Assembly: GCA_030602705.1 (NCBI GenBank)
Contig: JAUVZF010000019.1
Coordinates: forward strand, 1-56,375
Direction: 5' to 3'
DNA: 56,375 bases
Origin: Planctomycetota bacterium
GTDB lineage: Bacteria > Planctomycetota > Phycisphaerae > FEN-1346
Positions 2,118 through 37,250 of this stretch are shown in pieces. A program made the position numbers and the translations under genes. The notes beneath the pieces are model-generated. The model ran no database searches, was not told the DNA's origin, and worked only from the letters and a program-made list of their open reading frames with translations. Every line of letters starts with the position of its first letter. The stretch's first letter is position 1.

Positions 2118-5100
2118 CGCTCGTCTCCTTCCCACGTGTAATCCGCCACCAGTTCCAACGTATCGCTTGCATCGAGAAGCGTCTTCTCGAACTTGACCGT
2201 GTAACCGACCGTCGGCACCACCACCGCCGCCGGAACGCCGGGGAACCGCACCGGCTCGACCTCGACCGACCAGTGCTGCATGCGGCCGGACTTGACGGCC
2301 GTCAGGTACCCCCCGTTATCGACGATCAGGTAATCATCGTGGACCACCTGAAGCGTGTTGCCGTTGTAGATCAGCGTGTTTCGCTCGTCGGCAGCGCGGC
2401 TGATGGAGACCGGCAGGCCGTTGGCCAGCAGCGCGTCGGTGCCGACGACGGCCTCCTGGTAGGCGTCGCGCAGCAGCAGTTGGCCCGAGACAGCCGCGCC
2501 GGCGGCGCGCTGCTCCACGTCCATCACGCCCCGGAGTTGCCCCTCGTTGATGACGGCGTAGCGGACGCCGTTCGCGCCCGTCTTCCACCGGATGCCGGCG
2601 GCCTCCGCGGTGCCGGCGTCCACGAAGAAGTTGCGCGAGGCGACACCCACCCGCTGACCCACGTTCAGCCGCAGACGCTCCAGAACCTTCTCAATGTTCG
2701 CCACCGCCACCGGCCGGTTCGCCACGACGAGGGTGCCGCCGTCCACCTGGATCCCGACCTGGCCCTCGGTCAGGTCGAAGCCGACCTGCTGCCCGCCGAG
2801 AAGGAGCGTCCCGCCGGCGATAGAGAGCATGCCCGTCTCCGACGGGACGGCTCGGACAACGGCGCCGTGCCGGTCGACGATGCCGCTCGTGTCCACCTGG
2901 CCGCCGCGATCCCTGAGCGCCCACGCGTAATTCCGCGCCACGAACTCGGCCAGTTGCCGGTCGCCGTTGGCGTCTACAGTAAGGTCGGCGACGTTGAACT
3001 TCACCTTGTCCTGTTCGCGTGCTTCCTTCTCGAGCGCCTCCCGTGCCTTGCCGACGTCTTCCAGGGCGCCCCGCACGTCTCGCAGTCCGTCCGTGAAGAA
3101 GTGCGCGACCGCGTGCCGCCGCGCATCACTTGGCCGCAAGGGCGCCCGGGCGCTGTCCGGTTGGACCGCAACAGTTCCTTCCGGCTCACCGGCCGGCGCG
3201 GGCCGCCTGGCCACGATGGACGGCTTGGGCCCCTTGCGCGTGGGAACCTTCGCGACCAGGTCATCAACAGCCACGCGACCACTTCTTCTCGTGAGGGTCA
3301 TGGCAGCGCCGGCGGTGACCTGCGCCCGTTTCTCGAGCCGATCGATGAGTTTCCCGGCCTCGGCGATGCGGCCCGCGCGGGCGAGTTCGGTGGCCTTACG
3401 GGCCTCGGCCTTCAGGGCCTCGGCCTTCTCGGCAACCTGGCGGCCGAAATCCCGCCGCACCGCATCTCGCCTCTTGTCCTCCCACGTGACGCCGGCCGCA
3501 CCGAACAGGTCGCCTCCCGGCTTGCCCCGGCCTGGTCGGGTTACCTCCGTCGCGTCGCCGACTTCGAACCGCGGCGCCGCGTCAGCGAAATCCGGTTTCC
3601 GGGCCGTCAGTTGGCCGTGGATGGATTTCAGTTGCTCGACCTGCTTCTTGAGATGCTCGATCTCGTCGCGGGAAGCCGCAACCCCGTAGGCGTAGCCTCC
3701 GCCGCCAACACCGACCTGGCGGCGGCCGCGCGCGCCCGTCGCGCGCAGCGTCACCTGCTGCTCGGCCAGGGCCTCACCCATCTCAACCTGGGGTGCGGCC
3801 TGACCAGCCTCACCGGGTGGAGGAGGCCCCCTCACCACGTCGCGACCCGGGGTCAAGGTGACGCCCAAGGCGGGAATGTCCGCCGGGACCAGGGCCTCGC
3901 TGATGTAGGACCGCTGGCCGCTATACAGCGTGATGCGCGGGGCCGGGAGCAGGAGGGCCTCCACAACCTGCTCCATCTCCTGGCCGCCCGTCTGCGCGAT
4001 GTCGCGCTGGAGGGCCGCCACCTGCTGCTGGAGTGCAGCAACCTTCTTGCCCTCTTCCTCGCGGAGCCAGCCGCGCTCGGCCAAATACTTCTGGGCCTTT
4101 CGCACCACGGCCTTCTGCTCCTGGGCCTCCTCGCCGCGCGCTTCGAGTTGCCTGGCCAGATTGACGGCCACCCGGTAGGCCGCTTCGGCCTGGTCCTCGT
4201 CTCCCCGCCGCACGGCCAGGTCGGCCTGCGTGAGCAGGCGTTTCTGCCGCTCGCGGATGTCGATATTGCCCCACTGCTGGGCCTTCTGGACGGCCTTGGC
4301 CGTGGCTCGCAGACCGCGCTGCTCCTTCTCGCCCTTCCTCTCCTTGCCGAGCGCGATGGCCACGTTGGCCAGATACTGCCCGGCCTTGTTGGCTTCGAGC
4401 GACTTCGGTGCGGCGTCGATAACCCCTTTGAACAGTTCGGCGGCCTTGGCGTAGTTCTTCCCGCGGTAGGAATCGACCCCCGCGCGAAAGAGGTTCTTGC
4501 CCTGAAGAATGCGTGCCTGGGCCCGTGCCCGTTCATCGAACTCGGTCCCGCGCGCCCGCTCTTCCTCACGCAGCCGCTCCATCTCGCGGTTCCTCAGCAG
4601 TGCCGCGTTGTACTTGGTTTCGGATCGCACAAACAGACGCCCGATCGCCTCGAGCAGGCCCGGGGCTTTCGGCTTCTGCGGCTCCCTTTCCGGCGTCGGC
4701 GTCTCCGGCGCCTCCTCGGGCTTTGGCTGAAGCCCCTCCGCGAGGTGCCCGCGGCCGTATTCGAACTCGAGTTCCGCCGTCTCGCTCGACCAGGCATCGG
4801 CCCGCCGGAGTACACCGTGCCACTCGCCGGCCTTCATCCCGTCCGGCAGCATCAGCGCGCACCGCGCATACGCCACCGGCAAATCGGCCCGTGGAAGCGG
4901 CAGGCGGAACGTGCCCTCGCGAGCGAGCCCTTCGGCACGCATCACGTAGACCAGTTCGACGGGGAAACTCACCAGGCCCGCCGTCGTCAGGACGCTCTTT
5001 TCGAGCGGCACGTACACCGTGCGGCCGGGACCGCGGGCAAGGTTCTTCTGCACCTCCGACACGCGGGCGACGACCAGTTCCGCGCCCGGCGGCAGGGCCA

Positions 5101-14485: not shown

Positions 14486-17083
14486 TCAGGCCGTCCGGCG
14501 CCGGCGGGCGAGCAGCCCCAGAGCGCCGAGCGAGAGCAGCACGAGCGTCGCCGGCTCGGGGAACCAGATGAGCAGTTCGGGATGGTCGATCAGGACGTCC
14601 TCCCCCATAGTCAGGTTGAGGTAGTAGAGCGGGTAGTCGAGGTTGAGGGCCGAGTCGTCACTAAGGATGAGCGTCTTGACGTACTGGGCGTAGTCACCTT
14701 CCGGCCAGTGGGGGACCTTGACGACGTCGAGCGTGCCGCCGTCTTCCAGCAGGATCGTGCCGATGCAGACGTTGTCTTCCTCGCCGGCCCCGGCGATGCT
14801 GCCGGCCCAGATCTCGTGCTCATGCCCCAGGCCGTAGAAGTGGAGCGTCGTCTCGGTCATGTCGATGCCACTGCGATCGTCGCACATCGAGCGGAACTGA
14901 CCGTTCAGGTAGAAATGGGTGTTGGCGTCGGCGTAGAAGGTGGTCAGGGGGTCCCCGGGTCGGTGGCCGACGGCCAGGCCGGCCGCGTACACGTCCACGC
15001 CGTAGAGTTCCATGGAGCCGCCGTCGTACACGCCCACGAAGTCGACGGAGTGTATTTCGCCGCCCGTCATGGTCATCGTGCCGTAGACGGCGAGGTCCCA
15101 GCCCAGGATGTCGATCCGGCTGTCGCCGGTGACGGTCAGCGTGCCGCTGTCGCCAACGGCAAGCCGGTTGTGGGCCTCAATGTTACTATCGGTCAGCCGC
15201 AAGAGGCCGTCGACCGCGAAGTGCTCGTCCATGGCGACGAGGCTGCTCTGTGCCATGGCGTTGAGTTCGGCGCCGGCGTTGACGCGGAAGCGGCTGGCTT
15301 GGATGGTGGTGTTGCGCGTCACGCCTTGGCCGATCATGTAGAACGTGCCGCCCACGACGATCTCCTTCGGGTCGCCCGGCGTGCCGCTGGCATCGAGCGT
15401 GACGCCCGCGCGGAAGGACAGGCTGCCGCCGGCGATGATCTTTGCGCCGGGTTCGAGGAACCACTCGCCGGCGTGGATGTCGAAGTAGTCGTAGACGGTA
15501 AGGGTCTGGTCGCGCCCGATCGTGAAGTCGGTGGGGCGGTCGTAGCGCAGGGACTGGACGGTGCGGCTGTCGCTGAGGATGATGGCGCCCAAGGCGCCAG
15601 GGTCGCCCCCGGGGTCGGGGAAATACAGGGCGTAGAGCGTGTCGTAGGCCGTGTGGCCGGCATTCCAGATGTTGTCCGGCACGCCGACGGGGTCCCAGTT
15701 GGCGGCGTCGTGCCAGTTGCCGCCGGTGTCGGAATCCCAGTCCACGGACTGGGTTGCCACCGGCACGCTGCCGTCGATGTGGCAGTAGTCGATCCAGAGG
15801 TCAACCGAATCGAGGTTGGGAAATACGCCGTCCAGCCACCATTCCTCGTCCATGACCTGGAACATCAGAATCACCGTGCGGCCGCGCTCTTCGTCGGTGA
15901 CGGGGATGTCGAACCGGACCCAAGCGCCCTCCGTATCGTCGAGGATCGTGTCGGCCCACCAGCCGGGGTCGAGGCCGGCGCGGGCCTCGGTGGGGCCGCC
16001 GATGCCGTCGACGATCTGGGTCAGGTACATGAAGGAGACCTGGGTGGCATCGAGCGGGATGTAGAGGTCATTGTGAATGCGGTATTCGCCGCGCATGTAC
16101 TCCTCCGCGCCCGGGTCGCCGACCCACTCGCCCTGGGCGCGGAGATGTGCGGCGTAGTCGTCGGGGGCGCCTCCGGCGGCGAGGTTGACGGCCTCGGCCA
16201 GGCTGTTGGCGCTCTCGCCGTAGTTGTCGTGCCACCAATCGGTGAGGTGGTCGCCCTCCCAGTCCGCGTCCTCGAAGCGGGGGTTGCAAAAGGTGCCGCC
16301 GCCGGGCGCGTACGCCGGCGGTGGACACTGCGGCGGCAGCCCCGGCCCTGGTCCGCCGGGGCCGAAGAAGTTCTTGTCAGAGACGGCGCCGGGCCAACCG
16401 TTATCGCCGGGGCCCATCTCGTCGGACCACATGTGGTCGTTGCCCCAGATGGCGGGGGCCCCTTCCTCCATACCCAAGGCGTCGAACCCGTGGACATCGT
16501 AGAAGAGAGAGTCCGGTTCGCCCTCGGGCGGGACGGCGAACGCTGCATGGACATCCACCTCGTACGGCATGCCGCCGCCGTAGTCGTCGTGGTAGGTCCC
16601 GGGCCCCCAGTAGTCGGCGATGCCCTCCTCCTCATCCTCCCAGTCCCAGTGAAGTTCGATGGTGAGGCGCCCGATGTGGGCCAGCGAGAAGTTGCGCTCC
16701 GCCATGTCCGTGCCCTCGCCCTCGTCGAAGAGATATTCCTCGTAGAACCAGGGGAAGAACGGTTCGGGCAGACCGGGAAGGATGAGAGGACCCATGTTGG
16801 GCACGATGGCGTAGACCGGCAGTTCGGTGAACGTGAACGTGTCCGGGGCGTCGGAGTCGCCCGTGTAGGTGCCGGACGTGTTGACGAGGCCCGACGTGTA
16901 GAGTTCGGTGTAATCCGGGTTGATGACCGCCGGGAAGGACATGCCCTCGTTGATGCTTCCGACCTCGATCTCGACGTCCAGTGTCAGGACGCCGCCGGTG
17001 CCGTCGGCCAGGGCGTCACCGGGAGCGACGACTGCCGCCACGAGACTTGCGCAGGCGGCGAGAAGGTGTGTCGGGTTACGCAT
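14486..17083 (-). CDS. large PEP-CTERM sorting-domain protein
   Basis: The 865-aa product has a signal peptide (MRNPTHLLAACASLVAAVVA...) and a C-terminal exosortase signal: FPEPATLVLLSLGALGLL followed by ARRRR. Such proteins are cleaved at the PEP motif and released to, or anchored in, the envelope or biofilm matrix. The first half is rich in acidic, aromatic and Gly/Pro residues. Residues about 480-830 look like a right-handed beta-helix or autotransporter-like array of short strands (GDSGTLTVTGDSR, YGTMTMTGGE). No catalytic residues are evident. The ATG at 17083 has AAAGGGAAAC upstream; a longer frame starting at 17218 runs through the leader hairpin and is not the likely start. The gene sits behind a promoter and an intrinsic terminator, so its expression is probably attenuated. 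Confidence 0.88.
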   Translation of the reverse strand: MRNPTHLLAACASLVAAVVAPGDALADGTGGVLTLDVEIEVGSINEGMSFPAVINPDYTELYTSGLVNTSGTYTGDSDAPDTFTFTELPVYAIVPNMGPLILPGLPEPFFPWFYEEYLFDEGEGTDMAERNFSLAHIGRLTIELHWDWEDEEEGIADYWGPGTYHDDYGGGMPYEVDVHAAFAVPPEGEPDSLFYDVHGFDALGMEEGAPAIWGNDHMWSDEMGPGDNGWPGAVSDKNFFGPGGPGPGLPPQCPPPAYAPGGGTFCNPRFEDADWEGDHLTDWWHDNYGESANSLAEAVNLAAGGAPDDYAAHLRAQGEWVGDPGAEEYMRGEYRIHNDLYIPLDATQVSFMYLTQIVDGIGGPTEARAGLDPGWWADTILDDTEGAWVRFDIPVTDEERGRTVILMFQVMDEEWWLDGVFPNLDSVDLWIDYCHIDGSVPVATQSVDWDSDTGGNWHDAANWDPVGVPDNIWNAGHTAYDTLYALYFPDPGGDPGALGAIILSDSRTVQSLRYDRPTDFTIGRDQTLTVYDYFDIHAGEWFLEPGAKIIAGGSLSFRAGVTLDASGTPGDPKEIVVGGTFYMIGQGVTRNTTIQASRFRVNAGAELNAMAQSSLVAMDEHFAVDGLLRLTDSNIEAHNRLAVGDSGTLTVTGDSRIDILGWDLAVYGTMTMTGGEIHSVDFVGVYDGGSMELYGVDVYAAGLAVGHRPGDPLTTFYADANTHFYLNGQFRSMCDDRSGIDMTETTLHFYGLGHEHEIWAGSIAGAGEEDNVCIGTILLEDGGTLDVVKVPHWPEGDYAQYVKTLILSDDSALNLDYPLYYLNLTMGEDVLIDHPELLIWFPEPATLVLLSLGALGLLARRRRTA

Positions 17084-17169: not shown

Positions 17170-17208
17170 ACAAAAAAAGGGGGCCGCCTGCCTTCCGGCA
17201 GACTGCCC
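17170..17208 (-). terminator. intrinsic terminator inside the 5' leader of the PEP-CTERM gene
   Basis: On the minus strand GGGGGC pairs with GCCCCC and CTGCC with GGCAG around a GGAA loop, followed directly by seven T residues. It lies about 25 bases after the predicted start point and about 87 bases before the ATG. A smaller hairpin, GAGTG/CACTC (17209-17230), sits just before it. Transcripts stopping here would be about 60-65 nt long. Confidence 0.8.
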
Positions 17209-17239
17209 CCGAGTGCATAAGCCCTCACTCTTCAGCACC

Positions 17240-17267
17240 ATTATACACAAAAAACGCGGCGTGTCAA
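17240..17267 (-). promoter_or_regulatory. consensus sigma-70-type promoter of the PEP-CTERM gene
   Basis: Perfect hexamers on the minus strand: TTGACA (17267-17262) and TATAAT (17245-17240) with a 16-bp spacer. No gene other than the PEP-CTERM one lies downstream. Confidence 0.85.
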
Positions 17268-33815: not shown

Positions 33816-34579
33816 GGCGTGTCGATGTCCTTCACGATGCGTTCGAGTGATTCGTCGGCGTGTTGGACAGTGAGTTCGACGCGGGTCCGTCCGCCGCGTG
33901 CGACCTCCGTGTGCTTGGGCGTGTAGATGACCTCGCAGGCGCCTTTTGCGTCCGGACCGACCACGAGGAACCCGCCGGCCTCGGTTTTTTTGCCGTCGCG
34001 GCGGGGGATGCTCGTTCGCTCGCCGGTCATTGTTGTGAGCGCAAGTTCGATGCGTTTGGGTGGTCCGCCTCGCGGTTTGACCGGCAGGCGGATTTCCGTG
34101 CGATAGCAGGTGATCCGCATCCTCTGTTCCTTGGCCGACGGAATGTCCGGGTGATCGGCACTGCCGGGATAGAAGAACCAGGCGCCCTTCCTCTTGTCGT
34201 AGAGCCAGTCGCACTTGCCGCGCATCAGAAACGTCTGCGCGTAGACCTCGTACTGGCGCGTCTCCAGGCCGGCGTGAAACGTGCGTGTCCATCGGTAGCG
34301 TCCGGCCACGTCGCCGCTTTCGACGACGGTCTCGTCGCCGTCGATGCCGAAGACGACGAAGTTGACGCCGCCGAGGTCGGTCTCGAGTTCAAACGTCACC
34401 GGCTCACCATCGTATGCCCACTGGTGCCGCTGAATCGAGAACTTGCCGCCGTCCAGCGCCGTGTCGGCCCACATCCGCGCATAGACGAGGCGCCGGCATC
34501 CCGCAAGGGGAGCGCACGCCAAGGCAACAAGGCCGATGGCGACGGCGATGCTTGGCCTGTGATGGCTGTTGATTTCCAT
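33812..34579 (-). CDS. lipoprotein of unknown function
   Basis: The 255-aa product has a signal sequence ending in the lipobox LAGC (VALACAPLAGCRRL), so it should be lipid-anchored. The mature part is beta-rich, with recognisable strands such as PVTFELETDLGGVNFVVFGIDG and RYRWTRTFHAGLETRQYEVYAQ. It suggests an immunoglobulin-like or C2-like fold, but I cannot name a family. It precedes hisS with a 4-bp overlap, an odd partner for an envelope protein. Repeat DNA lies immediately upstream. Confidence 0.75.
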   Translation of the reverse strand: MEINSHHRPSIAVAIGLVALACAPLAGCRRLVYARMWADTALDGGKFSIQRHQWAYDGEPVTFELETDLGGVNFVVFGIDGDETVVESGDVAGRYRWTRTFHAGLETRQYEVYAQTFLMRGKCDWLYDKRKGAWFFYPGSADHPDIPSAKEQRMRITCYRTEIRLPVKPRGGPPKRIELALTTMTGERTSIPRRDGKKTEAGGFLVVGPDAKGACEVIYTPKHTEVARGGRTRVELTVQHADESLERIVKDIDTP

Positions 34580-34606
34580 TCGATGGCCCGCCTGTTCCTG
34601 TGTACG

Positions 34607-34749
34607 TGTTTAGCGTGTCATTCCGAGCGAGCGAAGAAAAGTCGAGGAATCTCGCCGTTATGCGTGTCCGGACGACGAGATTTCTCCGCTCGCCCTCGCC
34701 TTTGGCGAGGGCTCGGTCGAATTGTCTCGCTTCGAGAGCACGCTAAACA
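34607..34749. repeat. 143-bp palindromic element with 11-bp inverted ends
   Basis: The ends TGTTTAGCGTG (34607-34617) and CACGCTAAACA (34739-34749) are exact inverted repeats, and GTACG stands on both outer sides. The inside carries a CCCTCGCC/GGCGAGGG hairpin and ATTCCGAGCGAGCGAAG-type wording common in dispersed intergenic repeats. A related start, GTACGTGTTTAGCG, occurs alone near 31888. Confidence 0.6.
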
Positions 34750-34793
34750 GGTACGTTCCGGTGAAACGGCGCTCGCACACCGTGCAGCGCTTT

Positions 34794-34844
34794 AGCGGAT
34801 GGTATGGCGGCGGGGAAGGAGTGTCAAGAATCTTGGGCGTCGCG
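34794..34844. repeat. 51-bp direct repeat, copy 1 (contains a duplicated pssA 3' end)
   Basis: Matches 37200-37250 at 49 of 51 positions in the same orientation. The right-hand 21 bases equal the last six codons plus stop of pssA, whose real end is in the other copy. Confidence 0.85.
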
Positions 34845-35040: not shown

Positions 35041-36864
35041 CTACCGCCTGCGACGGCGCGCGGCCAGGCCCACGATGCCTGCGGCCATCAGTGCCAGCGT
35101 CGCCGGTTCGGGCATGACGGTCAGCAGCGTGTAGTCATTCAGGTCGACGCCGGAAACCACGTGCTCCGAATCGAAGTACTCGAGCGTGTAATCGGTTCCT
35201 TCGGTGGCGCCCGTGATGGCCGCCCAGTCGCTCGCCGCCTTGTCCCAGTAGCGGATCGCGTCTGTGCTGTCGACGAGGTCCAGGAACTCGGCCAGGGTAA
35301 CGCCGTCCGTGAAGTCGCCCACCTTGGCATCCGGCACCTTCAGGGCGAGCATGCCGCCGATGTCGCCATACATATTGATGAAACCGTAGCCCTTCAGCAT
35401 GCCGGCCACACTCACCAGGCCGCCATCTTTGATCGTCAGCGAGCCTGTGCCCCAGTGGCCGACGCGGAGGCCGCTTGTCACCCACCTCGACCCGGTGCCC
35501 GTCACAGTCGCCGTGCCCGTCGAGCCGGACGAGGGGCCGAGATAGCCGTAGTCACTTTTGAGCATGCCGCCGGTTTTGATGGTGAGCGATCCCGTGCACT
35601 TGTAGTGGCCAACGCTGACGTCGCCGCCTTCGACCACGCCGCCGTCTGAGATCGTCAGCGTGCCTGTTCCCCTGTAGCCGACGCGGAGAAGGCCCTCCAC
35701 AAATGGCCTCATCTCCGTCACATCCCACACCGACCCGGCGCCCGTCACAGTCGCCGTGCCCACAGAGCCGGGCCAGTAGCCGAGATCGCCGTGCTCGCAT
35801 TTGACCACGCCGCCGTCTGAGATGGTCAGCGAGCCTGTGCCCCTGTAGCCGGCGCCGACTCTGATATTATTAACGGAACCGGTCTGATCGTAGTGGACAG
35901 TGAGCGTGTGGTCGCTGCCGCCGTCGAGTCCGAATGTGCCCTTGCCCGTGGCCGATGTGACCTTTACGTCGGCGTCCAGGACCCAGCCGCTTGTCTCGAT
36001 CGTGCCGTCGCCATACAGGTCCTTTTCCGAAGCGTAGAGGGTTTGGCCGACCTTCACCTTGCCACCGTCTGAGATGGTCAGCGAGACTGTGCCCTTCCCG
36101 CCGACGTGGAGGTTGGCATAACTAAGGTCCCACAGAGACCCGGCGCCCGTCACAGTCGCCGTGCCGTTAGAGCCGGGGTCGCGGCCGAGAATGCCCAACC
36201 TATTTTTGACCACGCCGCCGTCTGCGATCGTAAGTGTGCCGGTGCCACTGTAGCCGACGAAGAGAGGGTAAATCCCAAGGTGCCACTTTGACCCCACACC
36301 CGTCACAGTTGCTTTCCCCACAGAGCCGGAGTAGCGGCCGAGATAGCCGTCGTCGCATCTGCTGATCGCACCGCCGTCTGAGACCGTCAGCGTGCCGGCG
36401 CCGTAGCGGCCGACGGTGAGGAAGTCCGTCATCCCCCACGACCCGGCGCCCGTCACAGTCACCGTGCCGTTAGAGCCAGACTCGCAGCCGAGAGTGCCGT
36501 CGTAGGATACGACCCAGCCGCCGTCCGAGATTGTCAGCGAGCCTGTGCCCTCGTAGCCGACGTAGAGAGCGAGAGCCGCATCCCACCTCGACCCCGCGCC
36601 CGTCACAGTGGCTGCTCCCGTCGAGCCGGACTCGTCGCCGAGGGTGCCAGACCCGCTTCTGATCTCGTCTCCGCCGTCGACCTTGATCCAGCCGCTCTTG
36701 CCGTTGTCCTTGCCGACGGTGGCGTAGGTGTGAGTTGTCCAGGTCGCCGGGTCGGCCGGGACGACCTGGCCGCCTGTGGTCACGTCGGCTCTCGCCTGGG
36801 CGCACCAGGCGCCGGCAAGAACCAGTGCGGCCAGAAAAACGGATTGGTGTGTTCGGTGTCTCAT
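35041..36864 (-). CDS. PEP-CTERM protein with T5SS/PEP-CTERM-associated repeats
   Basis: The 607-aa product has a signal peptide (MRHRTHQSVFLAALVLAGAW...). It is built mostly of about nine repeats of roughly 45 residues with the pattern GSxGTATVTGAGSxW...LxVGYxGTGSLTISDGG, the repeat class shared by type V autotransporters and PEP-CTERM proteins; they form a beta-helix. The C-terminus has MPEPATLALMAAGIVGLA followed by RRRRR, the exosortase signal. It is expected on the cell surface or in the matrix. The ATG at 36864 has AAAGGGGAGAG just upstream; the frame extends further but through the leader terminator. It stands alone between 51-bp direct repeats. Confidence 0.9.
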   Translation of the reverse strand: MRHRTHQSVFLAALVLAGAWCAQARADVTTGGQVVPADPATWTTHTYATVGKDNGKSGWIKVDGGDEIRSGSGTLGDESGSTGAATVTGAGSRWDAALALYVGYEGTGSLTISDGGWVVSYDGTLGCESGSNGTVTVTGAGSWGMTDFLTVGRYGAGTLTVSDGGAISRCDDGYLGRYSGSVGKATVTGVGSKWHLGIYPLFVGYSGTGTLTIADGGVVKNRLGILGRDPGSNGTATVTGAGSLWDLSYANLHVGGKGTVSLTISDGGKVKVGQTLYASEKDLYGDGTIETSGWVLDADVKVTSATGKGTFGLDGGSDHTLTVHYDQTGSVNNIRVGAGYRGTGSLTISDGGVVKCEHGDLGYWPGSVGTATVTGAGSVWDVTEMRPFVEGLLRVGYRGTGTLTISDGGVVEGGDVSVGHYKCTGSLTIKTGGMLKSDYGYLGPSSGSTGTATVTGTGSRWVTSGLRVGHWGTGSLTIKDGGLVSVAGMLKGYGFINMYGDIGGMLALKVPDAKVGDFTDGVTLAEFLDLVDSTDAIRYWDKAASDWAAITGATEGTDYTLEYFDSEHVVSGVDLNDYTLLTVMPEPATLALMAAGIVGLAARRRRR

Positions 36865-36910
36865 GGCTCTCCCCTTTGTTTCCGGTGTCGTTTTCTCACC
36901 TCGTCCAGGC

Positions 36911-36950
36911 AAAAAAGAGGGGGAAACGGTCTCCTGGAACCGTTTCCCCC
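36911..36950 (-). terminator. intrinsic terminator inside the 5' leader of the second PEP-CTERM gene
   Basis: On the minus strand GGGGGAAACGGT, loop TCCAGGAG, ACCGTTTCCCCC: a perfect 12-bp stem followed by TC and six T residues. It lies about 190 bases after the predicted start point and 47 bases before the ATG, so it must be read through or prevented for expression. Confidence 0.85.
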
Positions 36951-37147
36951 GTTGCGACGATGTTAACGCTAACGCACGCGCGGCCTGAACGCTACGAAAG
37001 GAGAAAGCCCCCCGGAACTGGAAAGGACCCCCCTTCCGCCACACAGCGGCACAGCCATCCCGCCCATCCCGCCGCGCCCGGCCCCTACGGCGGGCCGGCG
37101 GTAAAAACGTGGACCGGCAGAGTCACGCTCCCCCGATCCATAACATT
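36951..37147 (-). promoter_or_regulatory. long 5' leader upstream of the terminator
   Basis: About 190 nt of untranslated leader between promoter and terminator. It is G-rich in its middle (CCGGGCGCGGCGGGATGGGC region) and has a palindromic GCGTTAGCGTTAACATCG part close to the terminator. I do not recognise a known riboswitch core. It could hold an antiterminator or ligand-binding structure. Confidence 0.45.
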
Positions 37148-37175
37148 AGTATAACACAAGTTCCGGTTATGTCAA
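37148..37175 (-). promoter_or_regulatory. promoter of the second PEP-CTERM gene
   Basis: On the minus strand TTGACA (37175-37170) and TATACT (37153-37148) with a 16-bp spacer. Confidence 0.75.
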
Positions 37176-37199: not shown

Positions 37200-37250
37200 A
37201 GCGGATGGTATGGCAGCGGGGAAGTAGTGTCAAGAATCTTGGGCGTCGCG
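37200..37250. repeat. 51-bp direct repeat, copy 2 (spans the pssA stop codon)
   Basis: Partner of 34794-34844. It starts 24 bases upstream of the PEP-CTERM -35 box and covers the last codons of pssA. Confidence 0.85.

Follow-up and report, generated by a model that had tools for sequence, protein, structure and literature searches.

Predicted promoter-proximal terminators in the leaders of PEP-CTERM genes from an order of Planctomycetota

Introduction

Protein-dependent attenuators, exemplified by the RAT of BglG/LicT and the two-hairpin ANTAR type, and lambda Q-type antitermination at the pR'-tR' late operon are familiar forms of transcriptional control beyond the promoter. The lambda Q system is counted among the processive antitermination systems, as are those of exopolysaccharide and conjugation operons, namely EAR, put, conAn and the NusG paralogues RfaH and LoaP (PMC8955417). 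Genes for PEP-CTERM proteins, the substrates of exosortases, mostly stand as single-gene units preceded by long upstream regions; in Proteobacteria they are served by sigma-54 promoters under PrsK/PrsR, while their regulation outside Proteobacteria was left open (Haft et al., 2006, PMC1569441). In the literature, no link of PEP-CTERM genes to leader terminators or antitermination was found.

A preliminary description of the window, i.e., the whole 56,375-nt stretch of planctomycete DNA analyzed here, drew attention to a promoter followed by a terminator ahead of two full-length PEP-CTERM genes. This observation is real, and the comparisons reported below assign it to a regulatory architecture of exosortase substrates that is specific to the lineage. 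The closest functional analogues would be transcription units controlled by antitermination.

Materials and methods

The source genome (3.88 Mb, 162 contigs, 93% complete) shows 57 PF07589 matches over the cut-off and two PF09721 exosortases and thus carries a PEP-CTERM/exosortase system; the named records nearest to a protein of the window are Planctomycetota MAGs at 64-72% identity. The order was sampled with 8 genomes from 2 families, including G005, which belongs to the same family and another genus. Leaders were compared over ~0.6 Mb of the own genome and ~1 Mb of relatives, a sample enriched in PEP-CTERM neighborhoods, with genes predicted by a simple codon-usage caller. A terminator was called strong at dG <= -15 with at least 6 T in 8, and a leader was called promoter-bearing when its promoter matched at 9/12 or better. 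Terminator counts were set against dinucleotide shuffles.

Results

Leaders of the two full-length PEP-CTERM genes in the window

The product of the focal gene matches PF07589 at 30.4 bits, and the promoter that had been described ahead of it is present (Table 1). Its -35 region, TTTGACAT, is a near variant of the TTTGACTT promoter class treated below; spacer and extended -10 (TGnTATACT) point to a strong promoter of the sigma-70 type. The 59 nt from this promoter (GTTTGACATAACCGGAACTTGTGTTATACT...) show 75% identity to the promoter and leader start of a PEP-CTERM gene in the other genus (L273, G005). The neighboring gene upstream runs in the same direction up to its end at 37230, and the promoter sits between that gene and the terminators.

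About 190 nt of leader precede the module W terminator, which is separated from the ATG by ~46 nt. As had been described, the stem is perfect and followed by six T, although it comprises 13 rather than 12 base pairs. Stem and tail fold at -25 kcal/mol (z -3.75), and the whole 279-nt leader has a fold z of -3.60. The motif GTCGCAACGGGGR has 6 matches in the whole genome, 5 of them in PEP-CTERM leaders and 1 in a phage coding sequence. Overlooked in the initial anatomy was an extra hairpin at the transcription start, which begins at ~+2 of the predicted transcript and contains the CGGGGGAG motif. Because its T tract is weak, it may be either a terminator or a 5'-end stabilizer.

Table 1. Features of the two window leaders and types of leader module.
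Feature	Position	Strand	Description
Promoter of first PEP-CTERM gene	17240..17267	(-)	TTGACA-16-TATAAT, 12/12; consensus match
Type A terminator of first gene	17172..17210	(-)	GGGGGCAGTCTGCCGGAAGGCAGGCGGCCCCC-T7; -29.1 kcal/mol, z -4.9
First PEP-CTERM protein gene	14486..17083	(-)	865 aa, ATG 17083; gene call
Focal PEP-CTERM protein gene	35041..36864	(-)	607 aa, signal peptide MRHRTHQSVFLAALVLAGAWCAQARA, PEP-CTERM at 35050-35112
Focal sigma-70-type promoter	37148..37175	(-)	TTGACA-16-TATACT, TG upstream of -10; 11/12 consensus
Focal first hairpin	37104..37140 (stem part 37140-37110)	(-)	TGGATCGGGGGAGCGTGACTCTGCCGGTCCA, then CG-TTTTT; -19.9 kcal/mol, z -3.6
Weaker G-rich hairpin	37007..37050	(-)	followed by TTTCTCCT; doubtful terminator; -19.3 kcal/mol
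Module W start	36946..36958	(-)	GTCGCAACGGGGG; sequence search
Predicted intrinsic terminator, module W	stem 36950-36919, tail to 36911	(-)	GGGGGAAACGGTTCCAGGAGACCGTTTCCCCC, 13 pairs, loop 6, TC-T6; fold
Type A	17210-17172; C118_43622, C101_7412		after promoter
Type B			GACGGG-stem-GGAGGGA loop-CCCGTTTT, with GGGATAGA ahead
Type C			GGGCGATTyTCGGAGGGA...GTCGCCC-T
Type D			GGGGGAGGTCGGCC...GGCCGGTCTCC-T
Type W			GTCGCAACGGGGGA...-T6; focal terminator
Type E			CCCGGGGAGG...GGGGATAGCCC

The first PEP-CTERM gene follows the same order of promoter and terminator, as had been noted, and in both leaders the predicted intrinsic terminator (36950-36911 and 17210-17172) combines a G+C-rich, stable stem with a direct T tract (T6 and T7, respectively). 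The type A terminator begins 29 nt after the -10 and is homologous to those of C118_43622 (84%) and C101_7412 and to that of a decayed leader in L027. In this decayed unit (5020-5100, C131), promoter and type A terminator remain and the downstream gene has apparently been replaced by a transposase-like fragment. That no other gene of the window shares the layout is not strictly true, because the gene at 34579 (-) has a promoter-like and a terminator-like element; this pair, however, lies within a dispersed repeat. The repeat is intergenic, ~160-190 nt long (GAGAAATCTCG...CGAGATTCCTC-T tract), and occurs at 34579-34844 (-) of the window and in L030, L041, L043 and L047, where it places a terminator-like hairpin ahead of unrelated genes. 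Repeats of this kind abound in the genome.

The terminator itself is not common to the two window leaders, which have different hairpin types, W and A. On the leader comparison, both types belong to a module set that is reused in varied combinations.

Terminator enrichment ahead of PEP-CTERM genes

In the own genome, strong terminators were found in 11/40 PEP-CTERM leaders and in 12/239 leaders of non-PEP-CTERM genes, with 1.4 expected by dinucleotide shuffles for the 11 observed. Over the genomes of the family and order, the corresponding counts are 26/105 and 29/530, and the stratified odds ratio is 4.34 (p 3e-6); the counts are not fully independent, because some of the leaders are paralogous. 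The enrichment persists where only leaders with a divergent upstream gene are considered (9/34 PEP-CTERM vs 9/220 others), so that the hairpins are not the terminators of the upstream gene. Among promoter-bearing leaders, a terminator-like hairpin lies between promoter and start codon in 23/48 PEP-CTERM cases vs 14/169 others (P=4e-9). Within the order, leader terminators were thus neither equally frequent ahead of other genes nor absent from further PEP-CTERM genes, and the enrichment is specific.

The arrangement does not extend to PEP-CTERM genes in general. About one quarter of PEP-CTERM leaders carry a strong terminator and about three quarters lack one, as do most leaders of the own genome, and PEP-CTERM genes without any hairpin follow several of the TTTGACTT promoters. 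Outside the order, 0/19 PEP-CTERM leaders showed a strong terminator. Among the leaders surveyed, the architecture is confined to this order.

The first hairpin begins 3-47 nt past the -10 in 14 of the 23 hairpin-bearing PEP-CTERM leaders. This short distance, like that in the focal gene, weakens the suggestion that the 190-nt leader serves as a sensor, since it leaves little or no room for an aptamer before that hairpin. A classical riboswitch at the first hairpin is therefore unlikely; terminators further along, W for example, do have ~190 nt ahead of them.

A promoter class of PEP-CTERM genes

A k-mer comparison of PEP-CTERM leaders returned TTTGACTT (16, with 0.6 expected) and CCGGGGGAG (12, with 0.6 expected). 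In the own genome, the pattern TTTGACTTN14-16YAYANT has 13 matches, of which 12 lie before PEP-CTERM genes, compared with 1 for the reversed control; the thirteenth ends 33 nt from a contig end and its promoter is identical to one of the other twelve. The class is thus near-private to PEP-CTERM genes in the own genome. A stricter pattern gave 38 matches in the order (8 genomes) and 31 in 53 other genomes of the class. About half of the loci selected by promoter in relatives, where the PEP-CTERM gene is complete, carry a terminator-like hairpin.

Modules shared by unrelated genes

An all-against-all leader comparison revealed that unrelated PEP-CTERM proteins share the modules A, B, C, D, E and W (Table 1), with up to four hairpins in series within one leader. 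The order A-B-C is kept in five leaders over ~260 nt, at a mean column identity of 79%. A covariance model of module B found 7 copies in the whole genome, 6 before PEP-CTERM genes and 1 before a contig-cut secreted protein; no further intergenic copy was found in the genome, and all other hits read these hairpins on the opposite strand. In module B, 5/17 pairs differ in both partners, a number reached by 5/500 shuffles, whereas the covariation score was reached by 0/500. Covariation in module C is weak, because only one two-sided change occurs among 95% paired cells. The T tract of module B in the own genome, T4, is modest, as is the CG-T5 of the focal first hairpin. Type E (CCCGGGGAGGTnGTnTGTGGGGATAGCCCyTCCTGAAGTATCA), a hairpin without T tract, lies just 3' of the promoter in L021, L024 and L012, and at contig ends in L016, L018 and L022.

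The CGGGGGAG motif occurs in 11/40 PEP-CTERM leaders vs 5/256 others in the own genome and in 8/42 vs 2/212 in the family f2. A looser G-rich motif was found in 19/89 PEP-CTERM leader hairpins vs 2/39 3'-end terminators (p 0.02); on this count, the idea of a common recognition element does not hold uniformly.

Within the own genome, leaders are similar in 4.7% of PEP-PEP pairs, compared with 1.8% among the other pairs, and no clear excess was seen in G007, G006 and G004. Owing to the dispersed repeats, such general similarity is not specific to PEP-CTERM genes, and the argument therefore rests on the specific modules.

Six PEP-CTERM paralogues (L013, L016, L018, L022, L032 and L034, on C144, C148, C20, C99, C77 and C46) share a ~450-nt leader that is 75-92% identical and has no strong terminators. 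It is possibly a large structured RNA; an Rfam scan of three of these loci (L013, L022, L032) gave no match.

Recurrence in other genomes

In G005, contig C276 shows a promoter, GTACAGGGGTAGACGG, module B with T8, ACAATC, and a C-type hairpin GGCGATCTCCGGGGGAG with T6. The order of promoter, GGGRTAGACGG motif, B and C is that of the own genome, and the leader is followed by the start of a secreted protein that is broken after ~140 aa. On C408 of the same genome, a promoter, GGGAATAGACGG, B and C precede a PEP-CTERM gene whose start resembles C101_7412, and on C178 a D hairpin nearly identical to that of the own contig C51 lies ahead of another PEP-CTERM gene. The D stem GGGGGAGGTCGGCC/GGCYGRTCTCC is followed by a T tract throughout and occurs with its second arm first in G001 (C270, L264) and G003 (C67, L267) and with its first arm first in G000 (L011, L026), G004 and G005 (L272).

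Several further elements were encountered. The tip CCTGTTGCGGG sits on variable stems of another type of PEP-CTERM leader terminator (L091; L104 in G007; L110 in G006; L129 in G005), and C[CT]GTTGCGGG was counted in 4/109 PEP-CTERM vs 2/582 other leaders. About 25 copies of CGGGGGAGGGGATAAAGAGGCTCTGCGG, apparently a dispersed repeat, are present in G043, a planctomycete of the same class (e.g., C9:84170-84197). Orthologous short genes starting with MKDILTTGEVARLCGVAPRTV, which encode a helix-turn-helix and a receiver-like domain, were found in L151 (G005 C20:26083) and L147 (G002 C84); in G005 this regulator gene lies near a PEP-CTERM gene.

Candidates searched for and rejected

At the gathering threshold, Rfam gave no match besides tRNA and rRNA in the window and 29 loci, and only chance-level matches at a relaxed threshold. 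Only a single PF02357 match, and hence no NusG paralogue, was found in the 93% complete genome, which also has no PF03861 match (ANTAR) at E 0.1. The sigma-54 element TGG[CT][AT][CT]-N4-6-TTGC[AT] occurs in 0/109 PEP-CTERM leaders vs 6/582 others, and inspection of the exosortase neighborhoods by eye revealed nothing obviously regulatory.

The pattern CGGGGGAGN{2,20}CTCTNCGG was considered as a class-wide element and rejected: its matches in 198 genomes of the class are mostly in coding or unrelated DNA, and as only 2/11 inspected loci precede PEP-CTERM genes, the exact hairpin is not class-wide. Relaxed covariance-model hits in G002, G003, G007 and G008 resembled chance or coding matches. CAGGGATAGA had also been read as a CsrA-type site, but this was abandoned since the copy in G005 is GGGGTAGA. 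Leader peptides with ribosome-mediated attenuation were also set aside: GGGGGAGG is Shine-Dalgarno-like, but most D hairpins have no suitable start codon, and an ATG or GTG at a suitable distance was found in C118_29827 and G004 C155.

Discussion

We propose, at about an even chance, that exosortase substrates of this order are expressed from a strong promoter gated by promoter-proximal terminators and opened by an antitermination factor. The proposal builds on leader anatomy, terminator enrichment, module sharing, recurrence across genera, covariation in the module B stem and promoter exclusivity, as read from the sequences, and supposes in addition that the hairpins terminate in vivo, that they do so conditionally and that one factor serves them all. 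A large subset of the exosortase substrates would then form a regulon whose members are built alike at the 5' end, with a strong sigma-70-type promoter (TTTGAC[TA]T ... TGnTATACT), 1-4 terminator hairpins of which the first usually lies <50 nt from the -10, a long leader and the gene. The promoter would fire largely constitutively, most RNA polymerases would halt at the promoter-proximal terminators, giving RNAs of ~40-80 nt, and gene expression would be switched on when the factor lets polymerase through. The purine-rich 5' arm or loop common to otherwise differing hairpins (CGGGGGAG, GGGGGAGGTCGGCC, GGAGGGA) may be its recognition element, and loading at the promoter or on this arm would fit the observations better than a sensor. 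The swapped arm order of the D stem would likewise fit recognition of an arm sequence and not of one fixed hairpin. The boldest version, a genome-wide antitermination regulon in which dozens of scattered single-gene units, each with its own promoter and terminators, are opened jointly by one factor through the G-rich element in the terminator 5' arm or loop, is rather unlikely.

The main competing explanation is that the hairpins are unconditional, acting as fixed brakes or 5'-end protectors that govern the amount or stability of abundant surface-protein mRNAs from very strong promoters, with no regulation involved. Placed at ~+2 and ending in a weak tail, the focal first hairpin looks like a typical 5' stabilizer; moreover, a terminator is missing from many PEP-CTERM genes that carry this promoter, and no antiterminator candidate was found in the genome, which showed one NusG and no ANTAR protein. 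Yet T tracts directly follow most hairpins, far over shuffle expectation, a series of up to four hairpins is hard to reconcile with a brake, and the conserved loop and flank sequences (GGGRTAGACGG, ACAATC), which recur in another genus, suggest recognition beyond the stem. Unconditional attenuation or stabilization is less likely than the proposed gating, but plausible.

A promoter, a hairpin and a T tract within ~60-80 nt also make up the layout of a small-RNA gene, and the leaders might represent an independent family of such genes ahead of PEP-CTERM genes that are served by other promoters. The focal gap between the last terminator and the ATG (54 nt) is too short for a second promoter, however, and the restriction of the promoter class to PEP-CTERM genes would be left unexplained, which makes this origin improbable. 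The two ideas are not exclusive, as under the antitermination model the terminated leaders would themselves be small RNAs.

Dispersed repeats, or promoter-leader cassettes copied in gene duplication, could have carried the terminators along as passengers; intergenic repeats are scattered all over the genome, some of them placing terminator-like hairpins ahead of other genes, and the six paralogues have their leader in common. Such an origin seems quite improbable, given that the modules are almost restricted to PEP-CTERM leaders, that the proteins behind them are largely unrelated, that B-C and D recur at the same position in another genus and that module B covaries. Insulation against read-through from upstream genes, for which the co-directional neighbor of the focal gene might speak, is highly improbable with the terminators downstream of the promoter and an equal enrichment behind divergent genes.

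If antitermination is taken as the working model, lambda Q offers a comparable layout: a strong constitutive promoter, a short leader RNA ended by termination, terminators that separate promoter and genes, a read-through switch and a promoter identity conserved with the regulon. It differs in that lambda has one operon, whereas many dispersed single-gene units are found here. The Q type also relies on a factor bound to promoter DNA and on a promoter-proximal pause; no pause element was recognized in the present leaders. In the processive systems, several intrinsic terminators in series can likewise be passed by modified polymerases only (PMC8955417), and EAR operates on exopolysaccharide operons, which are close to exosortase systems in function; here, in contrast, the terminators lie in the leader and not between operon genes, and neither a NusG paralogue nor an Rfam match was found. 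The BglG/LicT RAT and ANTAR attenuators resemble the present leaders in their short length and in a recognized element that overlaps the terminator 5' arm, but the motif differs and the own genome has no ANTAR protein. With the PrsK/PrsR genes, the planctomycete genes share a dedicated cis-regulatory architecture across single-gene PEP-CTERM units with long upstream regions; they differ in a sigma-70-type promoter, the lack of sigma-54 motif enrichment and the terminators in the leader.

The leaders described here thus add a lineage outside Proteobacteria with a common and directly testable regulatory architecture for exosortase substrates. The promoter class and the leader modules also provide a route to exosortase substrates that have lost their C-terminus to a contig end. 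Should the terminators be conditional, this would be an unusual form of antitermination, coordinating a scattered surface-protein regulon and not one operon.
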